NCBI GenBank assembly: GCA_025453925.1
Contig: JALOPK010000257.1
Location: forward strand, 1 to 5,200
Direction: 5' to 3'
DNA from: Candidatus Eiseniibacteriota bacterium
GTDB taxonomy: Bacteria; JAFGKV01
DNA length: 5,200 nucleotides
Shown here: one piece after another, positions 3 through 5,200 of the stretch
How positions within the stretch are numbered: position 1 is the stretch's first letter
Layout: each line of letters begins with the position of its first letter
The notes under the pieces: generated by a model
What the model was told of the DNA's origin: nothing
Database searches by the model: none
The model's input: the letters and a program-made list of their open reading frames with translations, nothing else
Made by a program: the position numbers and the translations under genes

Positions 3-443
3 TACGAACTGCAAGGAACAGGACTGCAGTTCCAGGCTAACACCGTGTCTCTTCCGCCCCCCAGCAACCACAGCCCGATCGACTTCACCTACGATCTGGA
101 CGAGGCAGGTCTCAGGGCGTTCTTCGATCGCACGGATCTCCTGGTTGCGCCATACATTCGTGCTGACGGGCTTCCGCTGGCGCTCTTAGAAGCGTTGAAC
201 TGTGGAGTCCCCGTCGTCGGCTTCGATTCTCCGGGCGTTGGTCGCCTGCTTCGTGAGAATGGCCAGATCGTGATTCCAGCCAACTACGGCGCCTTGCGCG
301 AAGCGGTAAGCAGTTGGGCACGTGGAGAACTCCTCGTCAAACCACCAACTCAAGGGCGCATCGCGGGATGGGATGAGCAGATGGGCCACTACATGCGACT
401 CATCGAAGATGTCTTTTCCCAGAGCGCGCCACCAGTCCGATGA
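3..443 (+). CDS. Glycosyltransferase, GT4-type (GT-B fold), C-terminal part only
   Basis: C-terminal nucleotide-sugar-binding part of a retaining GT-B glycosyltransferase, a family that moves a sugar from an NDP-sugar to a glycan, lipid or peptide acceptor, usually on the cytoplasmic face of the membrane. Seen: the frame is open to the left window edge, so the GTG at 45 is probably internal and the real start lies outside. The stretch FFDRTDLLVAPY corresponds to the family's 'adv.v.PS' strand, and DGLPLALLEALNCGVPVV matches the donor-binding signature (usual form E-G-F/P-x-x-x-L-E-A-x-A-x-G-x-P-V-V). The usual E-x7-E pair is present as D-x7-E: Asp at 165-167, Glu at 189-191. A TTA leucine codon, rare in high-GC actinobacteria, sits at 186-188. 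The stop overlaps the start of the next gene (ATGA at 440-443), so the two are probably co-translated. Donor and acceptor cannot be told from this fragment. Confidence 0.85.
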   Translation, partial: YELQGTGLQFQANTVSLPPPSNHSPIDFTYDLDEAGLRAFFDRTDLLVAPYIRADGLPLALLEALNCGVPVVGFDSPGVGRLLRENGQIVIPANYGALREAVSSWARGELLVKPPTQGRIAGWDEQMGHYMRLIEDVFSQSAPPVR

Positions 444-1336
444 CGATCGGTCACACGGTGAGGTCCCCCAGGTTGGGTATCGGGGTGACCTTCACGTTCC
501 GATCGACCGAGGATGCCGCGCTCGTACGCGATTGTGTATTAGGCAGAATCTCGGGGGCCCGAATGCCAGCACTTCAGTGGGACGATGCTCCTACCCCGGG
601 CTCCCCCAATGTAGCTGTGCATGTCAAGGACAATGGAAGCAACCTAAGCATCGGCTACACGGGTGCCGTTACGACCCCTGAGTACCTGACCACTAGAGAG
701 GGTCTCCACTGGGACTTCGGCAAGGTCTTCACGACCCTAGCCCTTCCGCAGCTGTGCAGGATTCCTGCAGTTGCCCTGCATGCGGCAGTGCTTGGCCACG
801 GACGGGATGAGGCGGTCCTTCTCCCAGGATCTTCTGGTGCAGGCAAGAGCGCCATATCGATTGCTGCGCTTGGCCTTGGTAAAGAGGTCCTGGCGAGCGA
901 GTTAGCCTTCGTGGGTGGTGCAAGAATCATCGCTGGGAATTCGCAACTGACCATCGATCCCCGGGCGCTCGATGCCTTCGAGTTTACCATACCTGGTGGT
1001 GCGCGGTCGTTGAACGGACGCGTTGTCATCGATCTCCCCGAGTGTTCTCTCCACCACATTGTACGTGTCGCATTTCCGAAGGTGACATTCTCGGGGTTAC
1101 GAGTACGCGAAATCACTTCCAGACGCGCCAGAATGCTTCTATTTGAGAACGCGGTGAGTCAGCTCGGGATGAGTCAGTTGGTGGCCCAAGAGACCCATCC
1201 GCTCGGCTGTCCGCCTGTTGCCGAGGAGCTGGAAATCATGGCGCAACAAGTGGTTCGCCTTTCGGGGAGCGAGTGCGTGATCGTCGAGGGACGTCCCGAG
1301 GAGATCGCGGCGTTCGTGACGTCAGGCGAAGCGTGA
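440..1336 (+). CDS. HPr kinase/PEPCK-like P-loop protein (HprK-related serine kinase-like)
   Basis: 298-aa protein with the P-loop of the HPr-kinase/PEPCK-like fold. Seen: residues 112-120 (ALHAAVLGH) followed by LLPGSSGAGKS (127-137), the usual 'H(A/G)..v...g.a.l..G.SGaGKS' arrangement. The N-terminal ~100 residues match no family I recognise and may bind a substrate. In true HprK the segment after the P-loop carries an Asp pair (LVADD); here the equivalent is VLASELAF (150-157), with Ser153-Glu154 in its place, so kinase activity is uncertain. Homologues that are not linked to sugar uptake occur in exopolysaccharide loci and in lasso-peptide clusters, where some phosphorylate a precursor peptide. 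The start is set by the ATGA overlap with the glycosyltransferase; there is no clear Shine-Dalgarno, which fits translational coupling. Three TTA codons (539, 902, 1097) suggest a lower-GC origin. Its 3' end overlaps the convergent gene by 15 bp. Fold is likely; substrate is unknown. Confidence 0.75.
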   Translation: MTIGHTVRSPRLGIGVTFTFRSTEDAALVRDCVLGRISGARMPALQWDDAPTPGSPNVAVHVKDNGSNLSIGYTGAVTTPEYLTTREGLHWDFGKVFTTLALPQLCRIPAVALHAAVLGHGRDEAVLLPGSSGAGKSAISIAALGLGKEVLASELAFVGGARIIAGNSQLTIDPRALDAFEFTIPGGARSLNGRVVIDLPECSLHHIVRVAFPKVTFSGLRVREITSRRARMLLFENAVSQLGMSQLVAQETHPLGCPPVAEELEIMAQQVVRLSGSECVIVEGRPEEIAAFVTSGEA

Positions 1337-1852
1337 CCAAGGGTGGCCGGTCGGGAGGGTAGTGAAGAGCCAGTCCTTCGCTTCCGGCGTGAGCCGAGGG
1401 ACCGTCTCCCGTGCGTCATGCCAGTCGATCCCTCGAAGGGACCGGCCCTTCGAAAGAAGCACGAGTTCTGGGGCGAGCACTGGAATGCCAACCCGCGAGA
1501 CGAGAGCCCTCTTCCAGGGAATGCATATCGATGGGTCTCGGCGGTATACCCAGCCGTCATCGGTTGCGGGGCTTAGGAAGACCTCGACGCGCTTCTTGGT
1601 GGAGCGGCTGATGCATGCCCGACCCGACCCGCCCGGGATCCATCCGTCAAGTGTCTCTTGGAGCTCTAACCGCTGGCCGAGCCAAGTGACCGAACCGACC
1701 AAGTCCCTGCAGAATACGGCGACGTCGACGTCGTGGTGTTCTCGCCATTGGGTCTCACTGTAGAGGGACAGGGCCCACCCCCCGGTGATCCACCAAAGGA
1801 ATGGAGCCCCGTCGAGTTCCTGCGCGGCTTCGGCTGGCGTCATCCATTCCAT
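1322..1852 (-). CDS. Nucleotidyltransferase, ANT(2'')/AadB-like family
   Basis: 176-aa soluble protein of the polymerase-beta-type nucleotidyltransferase fold, close in layout to the aminoglycoside-2''-adenylyltransferase-like group widespread in actinobacteria. Seen: ITGGWAL (22-28) is the G-G-W-A substrate-loop motif, and REHHDVDVAVF (37-47) gives the metal-binding D-x-D (Asp41, Asp43). Glu90 in RVEVFLS is the likely third acidic ligand. WVYRRDP (101-107), LAPELVLLSKG (127-136) and the tail PRLTPEAKDWL...TGHPW match the conserved C-terminal half of the group, so the protein is full length. Known members add AMP to aminoglycosides or lincosamides, but most relatives are untested; antibiotic modification here is only a possibility. 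The start is well supported: GAGGAG five bases before ATG. A TANNNT box (TATTGT, minus strand, 1894-1889) about 36 bases upstream of the start could be a -10 element. It is convergent with the kinase-like gene and has no visible HEPN/antitoxin partner. Confidence 0.85.
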   Translation of the reverse strand: MEWMTPAEAAQELDGAPFLWWITGGWALSLYSETQWREHHDVDVAVFCRDLVGSVTWLGQRLELQETLDGWIPGGSGRACISRSTKKRVEVFLSPATDDGWVYRRDPSICIPWKRALVSRVGIPVLAPELVLLSKGRSLRGIDWHDARETVPRLTPEAKDWLFTTLPTGHPWSRFA

Positions 1853-2535: not shown

Positions 2536-2554
2536 TAAATTATGGCGAGGAGGT
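2536..2554 (+). promoter_or_regulatory. Possible -10 box and Shine-Dalgarno of the AlbA_2/ATPase gene
   Basis: TAAATT at 2536-2541 fits the actinobacterial TANNNT -10 pattern. It stands out as AT-rich in GC-rich surroundings, but no -35 hexamer is found at normal spacing. AGGAGGT at 2548-2554 is a strong Shine-Dalgarno lying 11 bases before ATG 2566, slightly longer than ideal. It lies downstream of the other in-frame ATG at 2542, which therefore has no ribosome binding site of its own. Confidence 0.4.
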
Positions 2555-2565
2555 GTCCTGGCGCG

Positions 2566-4320
2566 ATGTCCATACGATTTGGCTCTGACCCAGTAGGCGA
2601 TGAGATCGCTCGCGTGCTCAGCTTGCTGGAGGCTGGCAGCTGGGAGCGAGCGGAGTCATCGTTCGTGGACGTGAAGGAGGAGGCGGGGCGGCGGGATCGC
2701 GCGGGCAACCTGCTGCCGGGGTCGGCGCACAGTGATGCGGCTGCGCAGCAGGTCGCTGCGGAAGCGGCCTGCATGGCAAACACCCCGGGCGGGGGAGGCC
2801 TGATCGTCGGAGTAGCCGACGACGGCGAACTGATCGGGACGGCGATCGAGGAGGCGTGGCTGCGTCACCGCGTCTATGAGCTGACGGATCGTACGTTGAC
2901 TATCGAAGCTCGGGCGGTGGAGGTAGCCGGGACGAGGATTCTCGTGATCACCGCACCTCAAGCGATCGAGCCGATCAGGTGGCGCGGTCGAGTCCTCTGG
3001 CGTGTCGATGACCACTGCGTGGAAGTGGATCCCGCGACCTGGCATGCCAAGCGGATGATCCGGACCAACTTCGACTGGTCGGCTCAGTCATCCCATATCG
3101 AGTGGTCGGAGTCGCGAGAGGCTTCTGTCGAGGTCGCTCGGCGTTTCTTGCGGGCCAGCGGTGAGGTCCATGCAGTGGAGTTGGCGGGCCGACCGACCCC
3201 GGAGCTCCTCAGGAGGCTCAACGTCGTCACAGGTGATGGGCTGCTCACCAACGCTGGGGTAATTGCGTTCGTCGGCCGTGGGGAGCCCGGGCTGGACTAC
3301 TTGCGCCGGGACGTGGCCGGTGGTGACAGCCGCCAGCGTGTTCTCGAGGGGTCCCGGGGGCTGCTCGAGGAGTTGCAGGAGGTCTTCACCCACATCGCGG
3401 CGAACAACGCAGTCAGCCATCTTCCTCGGGGGGTGGCCGTGGGCCAAGTGCGTGATGTGCCAGAGCAGGCCGTTCGAGAGGCCGTGGTGAACGGACTGGC
3501 GCACCGGGAGTGGGGCCTGAGCGCGCCGACCACGGTCGAGCACGTTGGGCGGACTCTCCGAGTCACGAGCCCGGGTGGGTTCTTCGGCGGAGTGAACGCC
3601 AGCAACATCATCACCCATCCCTCCCAATCGAGGAACCGCGCGTTGACCGAGCTCTTCGCTGCGATTCGCGTAGCCGAGCGTGAGGGGGTTGGGGTCGACC
3701 GCATGGTTCGCGAGATGGTCCGAATGGGGCACGGGGCGCCGGACATCGAGGAGATCCCAGGGCCGTTCGTCCGCGTCTCGCTCGTGGGAGACGCGGCCGA
3801 CGTTGCGTGGATCCAGTGGCTCGGCTCGATGAGCCCGCCCGAACTGACCGAGGACCTCAACGCGCTGCTGCTCCTTCGTCACCTCGTCGATGAGGGATGG
3901 GTCGACGTCGCGTCGGCTGCGCCCATCCTGCAGCTCAACCGAGCTGAGACCCAGGGCGCAATCAGCCGACTCGGGCAAGCCTCCCTGGGCGGAGGCGCGA
4001 TCATCGCGCTCGTCCCCGGAGCACCCGATGACGACCCCCCGGCCTGGGCGCTGTCGATGGACGCGCGCCACGCGCTCCAGGCCCTCGACGAGCAGGTGCG
4101 CACGTCGCGGGTCTGGCCCACCCGGGAGCGCATCGCCCGGTCGTACTCCCGCCTGCGCGGGCGGATCAGCACGACGGAGCTCGGCGGACTTGTGGGTGCC
4201 AGCCCGACGAACGTGGGGAACGTACTCAAGGAGTTGGAGAGGGCAGGGCGCCTGCGTCCTTCGCGCGAGAACCGCCGTGGCCCGGGCTTCTACTACCTGC
4301 ACTGCGACCCACCAGCTTGA
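2566..4320 (+). CDS. AlbA_2 (Schlafen-type) domain ATP-binding protein with C-terminal winged helix
   Basis: 584-aa cytoplasmic protein (592 aa if the RBS-less ATG at 2542 is used). Seen, numbering from ATG 2566: an AlbA_2 domain at about 30-157, with the acidic/basic strand SSFVDVKEE and the hallmark NTPGGGGLIVGVADDGELIG (72-91). A RecG-C/HATPase_c_4-like region follows, with the N-box EAVVNGLAHREW (305-316), SPGGF (335-339), RNRAL (356-360) and the glycine loop EGVGVDRM (373-380). Winged-helix-like segments lie at about 432-472 and 521-565 (ISTTELGGLVGASPTNVG). Known: such proteins are annotated as 'ATP-binding protein' or putative transcriptional regulator; some AlbA_2/Schlafen-type proteins take part in phage defence, and few have been tested. 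Inferred: ATP-dependent DNA- or RNA-binding regulator or defence protein. It is alone on its strand, about 210 bp from the proposed island end, a usual place for cargo. No frameshift or missing motif is seen. Confidence 0.88.
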   Translation: MSIRFGSDPVGDEIARVLSLLEAGSWERAESSFVDVKEEAGRRDRAGNLLPGSAHSDAAAQQVAAEAACMANTPGGGGLIVGVADDGELIGTAIEEAWLRHRVYELTDRTLTIEARAVEVAGTRILVITAPQAIEPIRWRGRVLWRVDDHCVEVDPATWHAKRMIRTNFDWSAQSSHIEWSESREASVEVARRFLRASGEVHAVELAGRPTPELLRRLNVVTGDGLLTNAGVIAFVGRGEPGLDYLRRDVAGGDSRQRVLEGSRGLLEELQEVFTHIAANNAVSHLPRGVAVGQVRDVPEQAVREAVVNGLAHREWGLSAPTTVEHVGRTLRVTSPGGFFGGVNASNIITHPSQSRNRALTELFAAIRVAEREGVGVDRMVREMVRMGHGAPDIEEIPGPFVRVSLVGDAADVAWIQWLGSMSPPELTEDLNALLLLRHLVDEGWVDVASAAPILQLNRAETQGAISRLGQASLGGGAIIALVPGAPDDDPPAWALSMDARHALQALDEQVRTSRVWPTRERIARSYSRLRGRISTTELGGLVGASPTNVGNVLKELERAGRLRPSRENRRGPGFYYLHCDPPA

Positions 4321-4341
4321 CTTACCTGGCGATGATGGCGT

Positions 4342-4370
4342 CGTGCGTGGGCCTCCTTGTGAGGCGCGCG
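4342..4370 (+). terminator. Hairpin downstream of the AlbA_2/ATPase gene, possible terminator
   Basis: The inner stem GCCTC (4351-4355) pairs with GAGGC (4361-4365) around a 5-base loop. The outer stem CGTGC (4342-4346) pairs with GCGCG (4366-4370), including one G-U pair, with a 4-base bulge. It starts 21 bases after the stop codon. There is no T-run, so it may be an actinobacterial-style U-less terminator or just a GC-rich fold. Confidence 0.3.
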
Positions 4371-4412
4371 ATCTCCCGGGCTCGAATGGCCGTGTCCGAT
4401 TCCTGCCAGCCG

Positions 4413-4434
4413 CTTGTAACTAACTTGTCACTAC
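4413..4434 (+). repeat. Tandem 11-bp repeat on the island side of the att site
   Basis: CTTGTAACTAA (4413-4423) is followed directly by CTTGTCACTAC (4424-4434), matching at 9 of 11 positions. The period equals about one helical turn. The first unit also repeats the CTTGTAA of the tRNA anticodon loop at 4529-4535. Paired short direct repeats near an att core are the usual form of arm-type integrase sites; that role is inferred. Confidence 0.45.
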
Positions 4435-4466
4435 GCCCCTGAAAGCCACGCGATCCAGTGGACGGT

Positions 4467-4526
4467 TTCGAACGCCACCGAGCACGATCTTCGAACGCGG
4501 AATGACGTGATAGACACTTCGAAGCC
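4467..4526. repeat. Three TTCGAA palindromes beside the att core
   Basis: TTCGAACGC at 4467-4475 and again at 4490-4498 (9 of 9 identical), and TTCGAAGCC at 4518-4526, the last ending three bases before the tRNA fragment. Spacings are 23 and 28 bases. In GC-rich DNA three copies in 60 bases are unlikely by chance. Candidate binding sites for an integrase, excisionase or host bending protein; no function is proven. Confidence 0.45.
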
Positions 4527-4528
4527 GC

Positions 4529-4570
4529 CTTGTAAACAGGTGGTTCCCGGTTCGAGTCCGGGCGTCGGCT
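4529..4570 (+). other. 3' fragment of tRNA-Thr(TGT): proposed attR of an integrated island
   Basis: Seen: the anticodon loop CTTGTAA (4529-4535, anticodon TGT at 4531-4533), the 3' anticodon strand ACAGG, the variable loop, a perfect T arm (CCCGG at 4546-4550, TTCGAGT, CCGGG at 4558-4562), the 3' acceptor strand CGTCGGC (4563-4569) and discriminator T at 4570. CCA is not encoded. The 5' side is missing: the bases before 4529 (GCCGC) do not pair with ACAGG, and no D arm or matching 5' acceptor (GCCGACG expected) lies within 80 bases upstream. Known: tyrosine recombinases often cross over in the anticodon or T arm of tRNA genes, leaving an intact tRNA at one end of the element and a 3' fragment at the other. 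Inferred: 4529-4570 is the original chromosomal 3' half, the island lies to the left and chromosome to the right. It cannot make a functional tRNA. Confidence 0.8.
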
Positions 4571-4629
4571 CTGTATCGTCGCAGGTCAGGAGGCAGTTTG
4601 GCCTGCTCGGATGGCGGGGCTTAGGCCCG

Positions 4630-4653
4630 GATTTGCCTACAGATTTGCCTACG
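4630..4653 (+). repeat. Tandem 12-bp repeat between the tRNA fragment and the thiolase gene
   Basis: GATTTGCCTACA (4630-4641) is followed directly by GATTTGCCTACG (4642-4653), matching at 11 of 12 positions. It begins 60 bases after the tRNA fragment. On the minus strand it reads VGKSVGKS in a frame open from about 4673 down to a TAG at 4433-4431 but lacking a start codon. The rest of the 4571-4781 spacer shows no gene and no strong terminator for the thiolase gene. Confidence 0.6.
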
Positions 4654-4781
4654 ATCGGGTCTTCGAGCGTTGTTCAGGCTGCTCACGAGCCGTCCGGCCG
4701 CACTGGCGGGCACGTCATGGACGCTTTGGGACCCAATGAACAGTCTGCTCCTGTTCCGCGATCAGGTGCGCGGCAACTCCC

Positions 4782-5200
4782 TCAGGTCAGGGTGCGGATG
4801 AGGATGGCGTCGCCCTGGCCGCCGCCCCCGCAGAGGGCGGCTGCTCCGGTTCCGCCGCCGCGGCGGGCGAGCTCGAGGGCCAGGTGCAGGGTGATCCGGT
4901 TGCCGGACATGCCCAGGGGGTGGCCGATGGCGATGGCGCCGCCGTTGACGTTGACGATGTCGGTGCTGATCCCGAGGTCGTCGGCGGAGGCGACTCCGAC
5001 GGCGGCGAAGGCTTCGTTGATCTCGAACAGGTCGATGTCGCCGATGGCGATTCCCGCGCGGTCGGCGGCGGCCTTGATGGCGCGTGAGGGTTGGTGGAGC
5101 AGGGAGGCGTCGGGTCCGGCGACCTGCCCGAAGGAGATGATCTCGGCCAGCGGGCTCACGCCGAGCTGTTCGGCGGTCTCGAGGGTGGTGATGATCAGGG
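4782..5200 (-). CDS. Acetyl-CoA acetyltransferase (thiolase), C-terminal part
   Basis: C-terminal ~139 residues of a type-II thiolase, which joins two acetyl-CoA into acetoacetyl-CoA or, in the other direction, cleaves 3-ketoacyl-CoA in fatty-acid breakdown; cytoplasmic tetramer. Seen: INEAFAAV (the NEAF loop), the signature [20 protein letters not shown] with catalytic His at 4922-4920, and near the end [10 protein letters not shown] with catalytic Cys at 4832-4830, both intact. The frame is open to the right window edge through [13 protein letters not shown], so the GTG at 5159 is internal and the N-terminal half, with the nucleophilic Cys, lies outside. The very G/C-ending codons differ from the left-hand island genes. 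This looks like core metabolism and marks the chromosomal side of the island boundary. Whether it is the biosynthetic (AtoB/PhaA) or degradative type cannot be decided here. Confidence 0.95.

Follow-up and report, generated by a model that had tools for sequence, protein, structure and literature searches.

A tRNA-Thr(TGT) 3' half as putative attachment-site core on a probably misbinned actinomycete contig

The 5,200-bp window analysed here, which is the entire contig C289 of a MAG, contains the 3' half of a tRNA-Thr(TGT) gene that, judged by its sequence and by related loci, is the putative attachment-site core of tyrosine-recombinase elements. We favour, at a probability of roughly 0.55, the reading that the site is the core of an actinomycete element targeting the anticodon loop of tRNA-Thr(TGT), that it passed through accretion and then decay, and that the contig was misbinned into the MAG. 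The source genome comprises 502 contigs and is 82% complete; its phylum is represented by three genomes in the collection. The window has the following features.

3 to 443, plus strand: GT4 glycosyltransferase, C-terminal part, cut by the contig end
440 to 1,336, plus strand: HprK-related kinase-like protein, 298 aa (weak assignment)
1,322 to 1,852, minus strand: predicted small nucleotidyltransferase-like protein, 176 aa, weak N-terminal match to PF10706
2,542 to 4,320, plus strand: accessory gene, SLFN/AlbA_2 plus RecG-C-like ATP-binding protein, 592 aa (PF04326, PF13749)
4,321 to 4,528, no strand: left flank, end of the accessory DNA
4,529 to 4,570, plus strand: tRNA-Thr(TGT) 3' half lacking the 5' half, putative attachment-site core
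4,571 to 4,781, no strand: right flank, from the tRNA half to the thiolase stop, with candidate arm sites and no recognisable integrase
4,631 to 4,652, plus strand: two direct copies of ATTTGCCTAC with a 12-bp period, candidate integrase arm-type sites (integrase side, P' arm)
4,782 to 5,198, minus strand: acetyl-CoA acyltransferase (thiolase), C-terminal 138 aa, cut by the contig end

The tRNA half begins with the anticodon loop CTTGTAA (anticodon TGT), which is followed by the 3' anticodon strand ACAGG, a variable loop of 5 nt (TGGTT), a perfect T arm (CCCGG-TTCGAGT-CCGGG), the 3' acceptor strand CGTCGGC, and the discriminator T (T73). Its 5' flank reads GAAGCCGC instead of the expected strand CCTGT. 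The descriptor TTGTAA-N14-GTTCRANTC-N10-CT matched once in the window and in none of 200 shuffles. Together with the letters themselves, this confirms the initial annotation in recognising a tRNA-Thr(TGT) 3' half that extends from the anticodon loop to the discriminator without a 5' half. ARAGORN called no tRNA in the window and Rfam reported nothing there, even at E ≤ 5, as expected because only half a gene is present. When up to three mismatches were allowed, the copy was unique in the assembly and had no counterpart in either the 396 genomes searched from the phylum of G041 or 43 additional ones; an intact partner tRNA with a matching 3' half was not found in the assembly (502 contigs, 82% complete). 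The exact 42-mer had no match in the viral contigs, and BLAST searches of the surroundings of the tRNA half against plasmids and phages returned short tRNA matches or nothing useful. The first 17 nt, CTTGTAAACAGGTGGTT, followed by GGTTCGAGTCC, are also present in intact actinomycete tRNA-Thr(TGT) genes, a family that was recovered with the T-stem relaxed in the pattern.

Genomes sampled from the order of Nostocoides yielded 18 tRNA-Thr(TGT)-like matches, two of which are halves broken at the same point as the half in the window. In genome G629, an intact tRNA-Thr(TGT) has a tyrosine integrase (PF00589, 3.7e-13) beside it, encoded on the opposite strand and with its stop 20 bp past the tRNA end; a displaced tRNA 3' half lies 39.5 kb downstream. 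The T-stem bases of this displaced half are divergent, and it is presumably the original half of the host. The general geometry that had been proposed, with an intact tRNA and an adjacent tyrosine recombinase at one end of an element and a displaced half at the other, is thus realised in this relative. In G678, both copies are on one strand: the displaced half follows the intact gene at a distance of 4,162 bp, and 46 bp are shared exactly between them. The insert between them (L183:5673-9835, 4.2 kb, tRNA-Thr(TGT)) has exact 46-bp flanks and contains an AbiEii-type toxin gene and no recognised integrase; it is a remnant or a cargo island. A lone displaced tRNA-Thr half was detected in G689. 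G220 has a tRNA-Thr and an adjacent integrase arranged as in G629, and no displaced partner half was found within about 108 kb past this integrase. The equivalent segment forms a direct repeat around the inserts of G678 and G629, and the loci of these relatives confirm the initially proposed integration mechanism for this tRNA. The claim that it fixes a boundary to the base was too strong: crossover is possible anywhere along the shared anticodon-loop segment.

The right flank of the tRNA half carries a second candidate recombination feature. Positions 4,631 to 4,652, 60 bp right of the core, read ATTTGCCTAC-AG-ATTTGCCTAC, by which TTTGCC is placed at core+103 and core+115. Neither shuffles of the window nor 246 other Actinomycetes genomes yielded the double repeat, and a literature search on the repeat yielded nothing relevant. 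Among 18 actinomycete tRNA-Thr loci used for comparison, TTTGCC occurs within 100 bp past the tRNA end at both integrase-bearing loci (in each case at core+97) and at none of the 16 others; the background frequency is 0.7% of 98-bp windows. In G629, a repeat with a 12-bp period is present at both element ends, past the intact tRNA and at −124/−112 inside the displaced end, which is the layout expected of P' and P arm sites. No such arm site was found on the outer side of the displaced halves in G678, G689, and G629. The tRNA half of the window, by comparison, has two candidate arm sites on its outer (right) side and zero on the left, where neither TTTGCC nor GGCAAA was found between 4,321 and 4,528. 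The window is therefore odd, as it lacks the tRNA 5' part like a displaced end, yet has candidate integrase-side arm sites outside. The copies of ATTTGCCTAC in the window and the sites of the relatives have only TTTGCC plus similar neighbours in common, so it is position and one short motif that suggest their equivalence.

The exact 20-base pair pattern was found in one prophage (two contigs) of the viral contig collection, 4 bp past the integrase stop, with the relative orientation preserved; another site is located on the far side of the neighbouring 260-bp gap. A looser pair pattern gave 24 viral-contig matches and added the integrases of L193/L194 (38 bp past the stop), L199 (overlapping the integrase stop), and L211 (within the C-terminal end of the integrase). 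Many of the TTTGCCTAC-pair matches in viral contigs fall within genes that have nothing to do with integrases; these were left out of the supporting evidence. The adjacency of TTTGCCTAC pairs to tyrosine integrase stop codons in the unrelated viral contigs L191/L192, L193/L194, L199, and L211 is an observation in its own right, and a shared arm-type site motif near integrase stops is worth cataloguing. The open frame through the repeats of the window, stopped a few codons upstream, encodes VGKSVGKS and resembles the C-terminal frame of the integrases in G220 (DGQNDGS) and G629 (GGQSGGS). No convincing alignment to an integrase remnant was obtained for positions 4,653 to 4,781. Because candidate arm-type repeats are located where the integrase-bearing relatives have theirs, and none is present on the left, the right flank does not appear to be ordinary core DNA. 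It looks like a putative integrase-side arm, either an accretion relic or attP-like, rather than plain chromosome.

The initial annotation had placed an island on the left and core DNA, marked by the thiolase gene, on the right. The part of this claim that holds is that the tRNA half is an integration core; the assignment of the sides is weaker, as the right flank bears candidate integrase arm-type repeats and the left none. Nor did the predicted arrangement of an intact tRNA directly before the thiolase gene occur in any relative examined: the distance from thiolase to tRNA-Thr is about 750 kb in G166 and about 520 kb in G678, and the two are on different contigs in G711, G629, and G587. At 30 thiolase genes, no tRNA-Thr was found within about 1.5 kb past the gene. 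The relatives sharing the tRNA type are all rather distant (their thiolases are about 65% identical), which leaves room for a local rearrangement in the true host. In some actinomycetes (L236, L239, and L069), the thiolase gene is followed within about 0.8 kb by a tRNA-Arg(TCT); the thiolase neighbourhood may have a different tRNA site. The 5.2-kb window does not determine where the island ends or on which side it lies.

The organism in which this site arose is probably not the one represented by the MAG. The MAG host has its own intact tRNA-Thr(TGT), which is identical in a genus mate over the 52 bases compared and is unlike the tRNA half; as a source of the half it was rejected because of this sequence difference. 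CCA is encoded in 28 of the 33 host tRNAs examined, and the tRNA half instead runs into CTGT. The thiolase of the window is closest to Actinomycetota and had no match in the two nearest relatives of the host. Its best DNA matches in the sample of the order of Nostocoides (G166, G678, G700, G711, G587, G573, G629, G689, and others) come largely from the same genomes as the closest tRNA-Thr(TGT) genes. The differing host tRNA-Thr, the CCA pattern, the absence of the thiolase from the nearest relatives, and the coinciding actinomycete matches indicate that C289 is probably a misbinned actinomycete fragment. In tetranucleotide composition, the contig (0.42) lies within the range of the MAG's own chunks (0.36–0.72), so by this measure the MAG could still be the host. 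Apart from this contig, C40, C96, and C155 of the MAG G000 (L014, L017, and L007) carry tRNAs without CCA, including two different tRNA-Lys(TTT); the other G000 tRNAs mostly encode CCA, and these three contigs are possibly misbinned too.

In the sequence of events that we propose, a tyrosine-recombinase element with the tRNA-Thr(TGT) anticodon loop as its target would have been integrated first in an actinomycete, oriented so that its integrase end was the right-hand one. By accretion, a subsequent insertion on the left side would have parted the 3' half, along with the P' arm, from the 5' half of the tRNA, and the accessory genes on the left would be part of this later insert. The integrase of the older element would since have been lost, with about 200 bp remaining before the thiolase gene. 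In a simpler arrangement, a single element is located on the left, the tRNA half is an attR with the displaced half of the host, the right side is native chromosome, and the ATTTGCCTAC pair is a coincidence or an unrelated chromosomal feature. The geometry of the displaced halves of G678, G689, and G629, the housekeeping-type thiolase gene, and the accessory-type genes on the left all speak for it. A simple attR should have an outer flank free of arm sites, however, and the window has two candidates there; the arm-type repeat occupies the integrase-side position on the right with none on the left, and the thiolase gene is not beside tRNA-Thr(TGT) among the relatives examined. We therefore regard a single left-hand element as unlikely, though it deserves more weight than the other alternatives.

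Alternatively, the contig might stem from an excised element, circular or in tandem, and represent its attP region, with the P arm on the left, P' on the right, the integrase elsewhere, and the thiolase gene as cargo. A core without the tRNA 5' half that is flanked on the right by integrase-side arm sites has the appearance of an attP, and prophage L192 has arm sites on both sides of the gap beside its integrase. The left side of the window, by contrast, has no matching arm site, no integrase is present within 210 bp of the arm, and a housekeeping-type thiolase gene comes directly after, all of which makes an attP rather improbable. That the half is a random tRNA-like pseudogene or a decayed tRNA fragment unrelated to integration would fit a window without an integrase, but it is very hard to reconcile with the intact 3' half, with a break point that coincides with the anticodon loop, and with similar breaks in three relatives, of which two retain an intact partner on the same strand; we give this almost no credence.

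The left flank has motifs of its own. Three TTCGAA-centred motifs at 4,467, 4,490, and 4,518 (spanning 4,467–4,523), at most 62 bp left of the core, comprise TTCGAACGC twice and CTTCGAAGC once and may be putative sites of another recombinase or an excisionase. A speculative and improbable extension is a composite junction: two unrelated recombinases would share a single tRNA 3' half, with TTCGAA-type sites on the left and TTTGCCTAC arms on the right; if it were true, the single core could let either or both elements mobilise in cis. For the protein encoded at 2,542 to 4,320, which adjoins the att core, PADLOC matched the C-terminal region weakly to pAgo-type models, and its gene is possibly a candidate regulator or defence gene.

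Integration at tRNA-Thr genes of actinomycetes has precedents in the literature. Six pSE211-type integrases use a tRNA-Thr gene (PMC3218068). These actinomycete elements are similar in having a tyrosine recombinase, the tRNA-Thr 3' end as target, and the element between the intact tRNA and a displaced repeat; they differ from the 5.2-kb contig, in which no integrase, replication, or transfer gene is seen. A Streptomyces ICE and AICE family 13 share one tRNA-Thr site, and accretion and decay of AICEs at single tRNA sites, with remnants between direct repeats, have been described (PMC9513070). The direct repeats of the Streptomyces ICE are 93 nt long, in contrast to the single 42-nt copy visible here, whose partner is missing (PMC9513070). 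Attachment cores of mycobacteriophages and other actinophages typically contain the tRNA 3' half within a common core of 30–45 bp (PMC10865867). Their attB sites in the anticodon loop resemble the window in the putative arm-type Int sites around the attP core and in the crossover at the anticodon loop; the tabulated phages considered, unlike the element proposed here, use other tRNAs (Lys, Gly, Leu, Ile2, Met, and Thr-CGT). The closest likeness is to the 39.5-kb element of G629, which has the same tRNA-Thr(TGT), the same break region, TTTGCC-type arm repeats, and the 12-bp period; it differs in its arm sequence (GCTTTGCCCACC versus GATTTGCCTACA in the window) and in possessing an integrase.

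The site in the window is a real and ordinary integration-site remnant of a kind already known in actinomycetes. The contig is a warning in that it is unfit for inferring islands or thiolases in the rare phylum of the MAG. With this remnant, tRNA-Thr(TGT) joins the catalogue of actinomycete integration sites, and the relatives display its stages: an integrase-bearing end, a full 39.5-kb element, a 4-kb remnant, and a lone displaced half. Arm-type repeats can tell the element side of a tRNA half.
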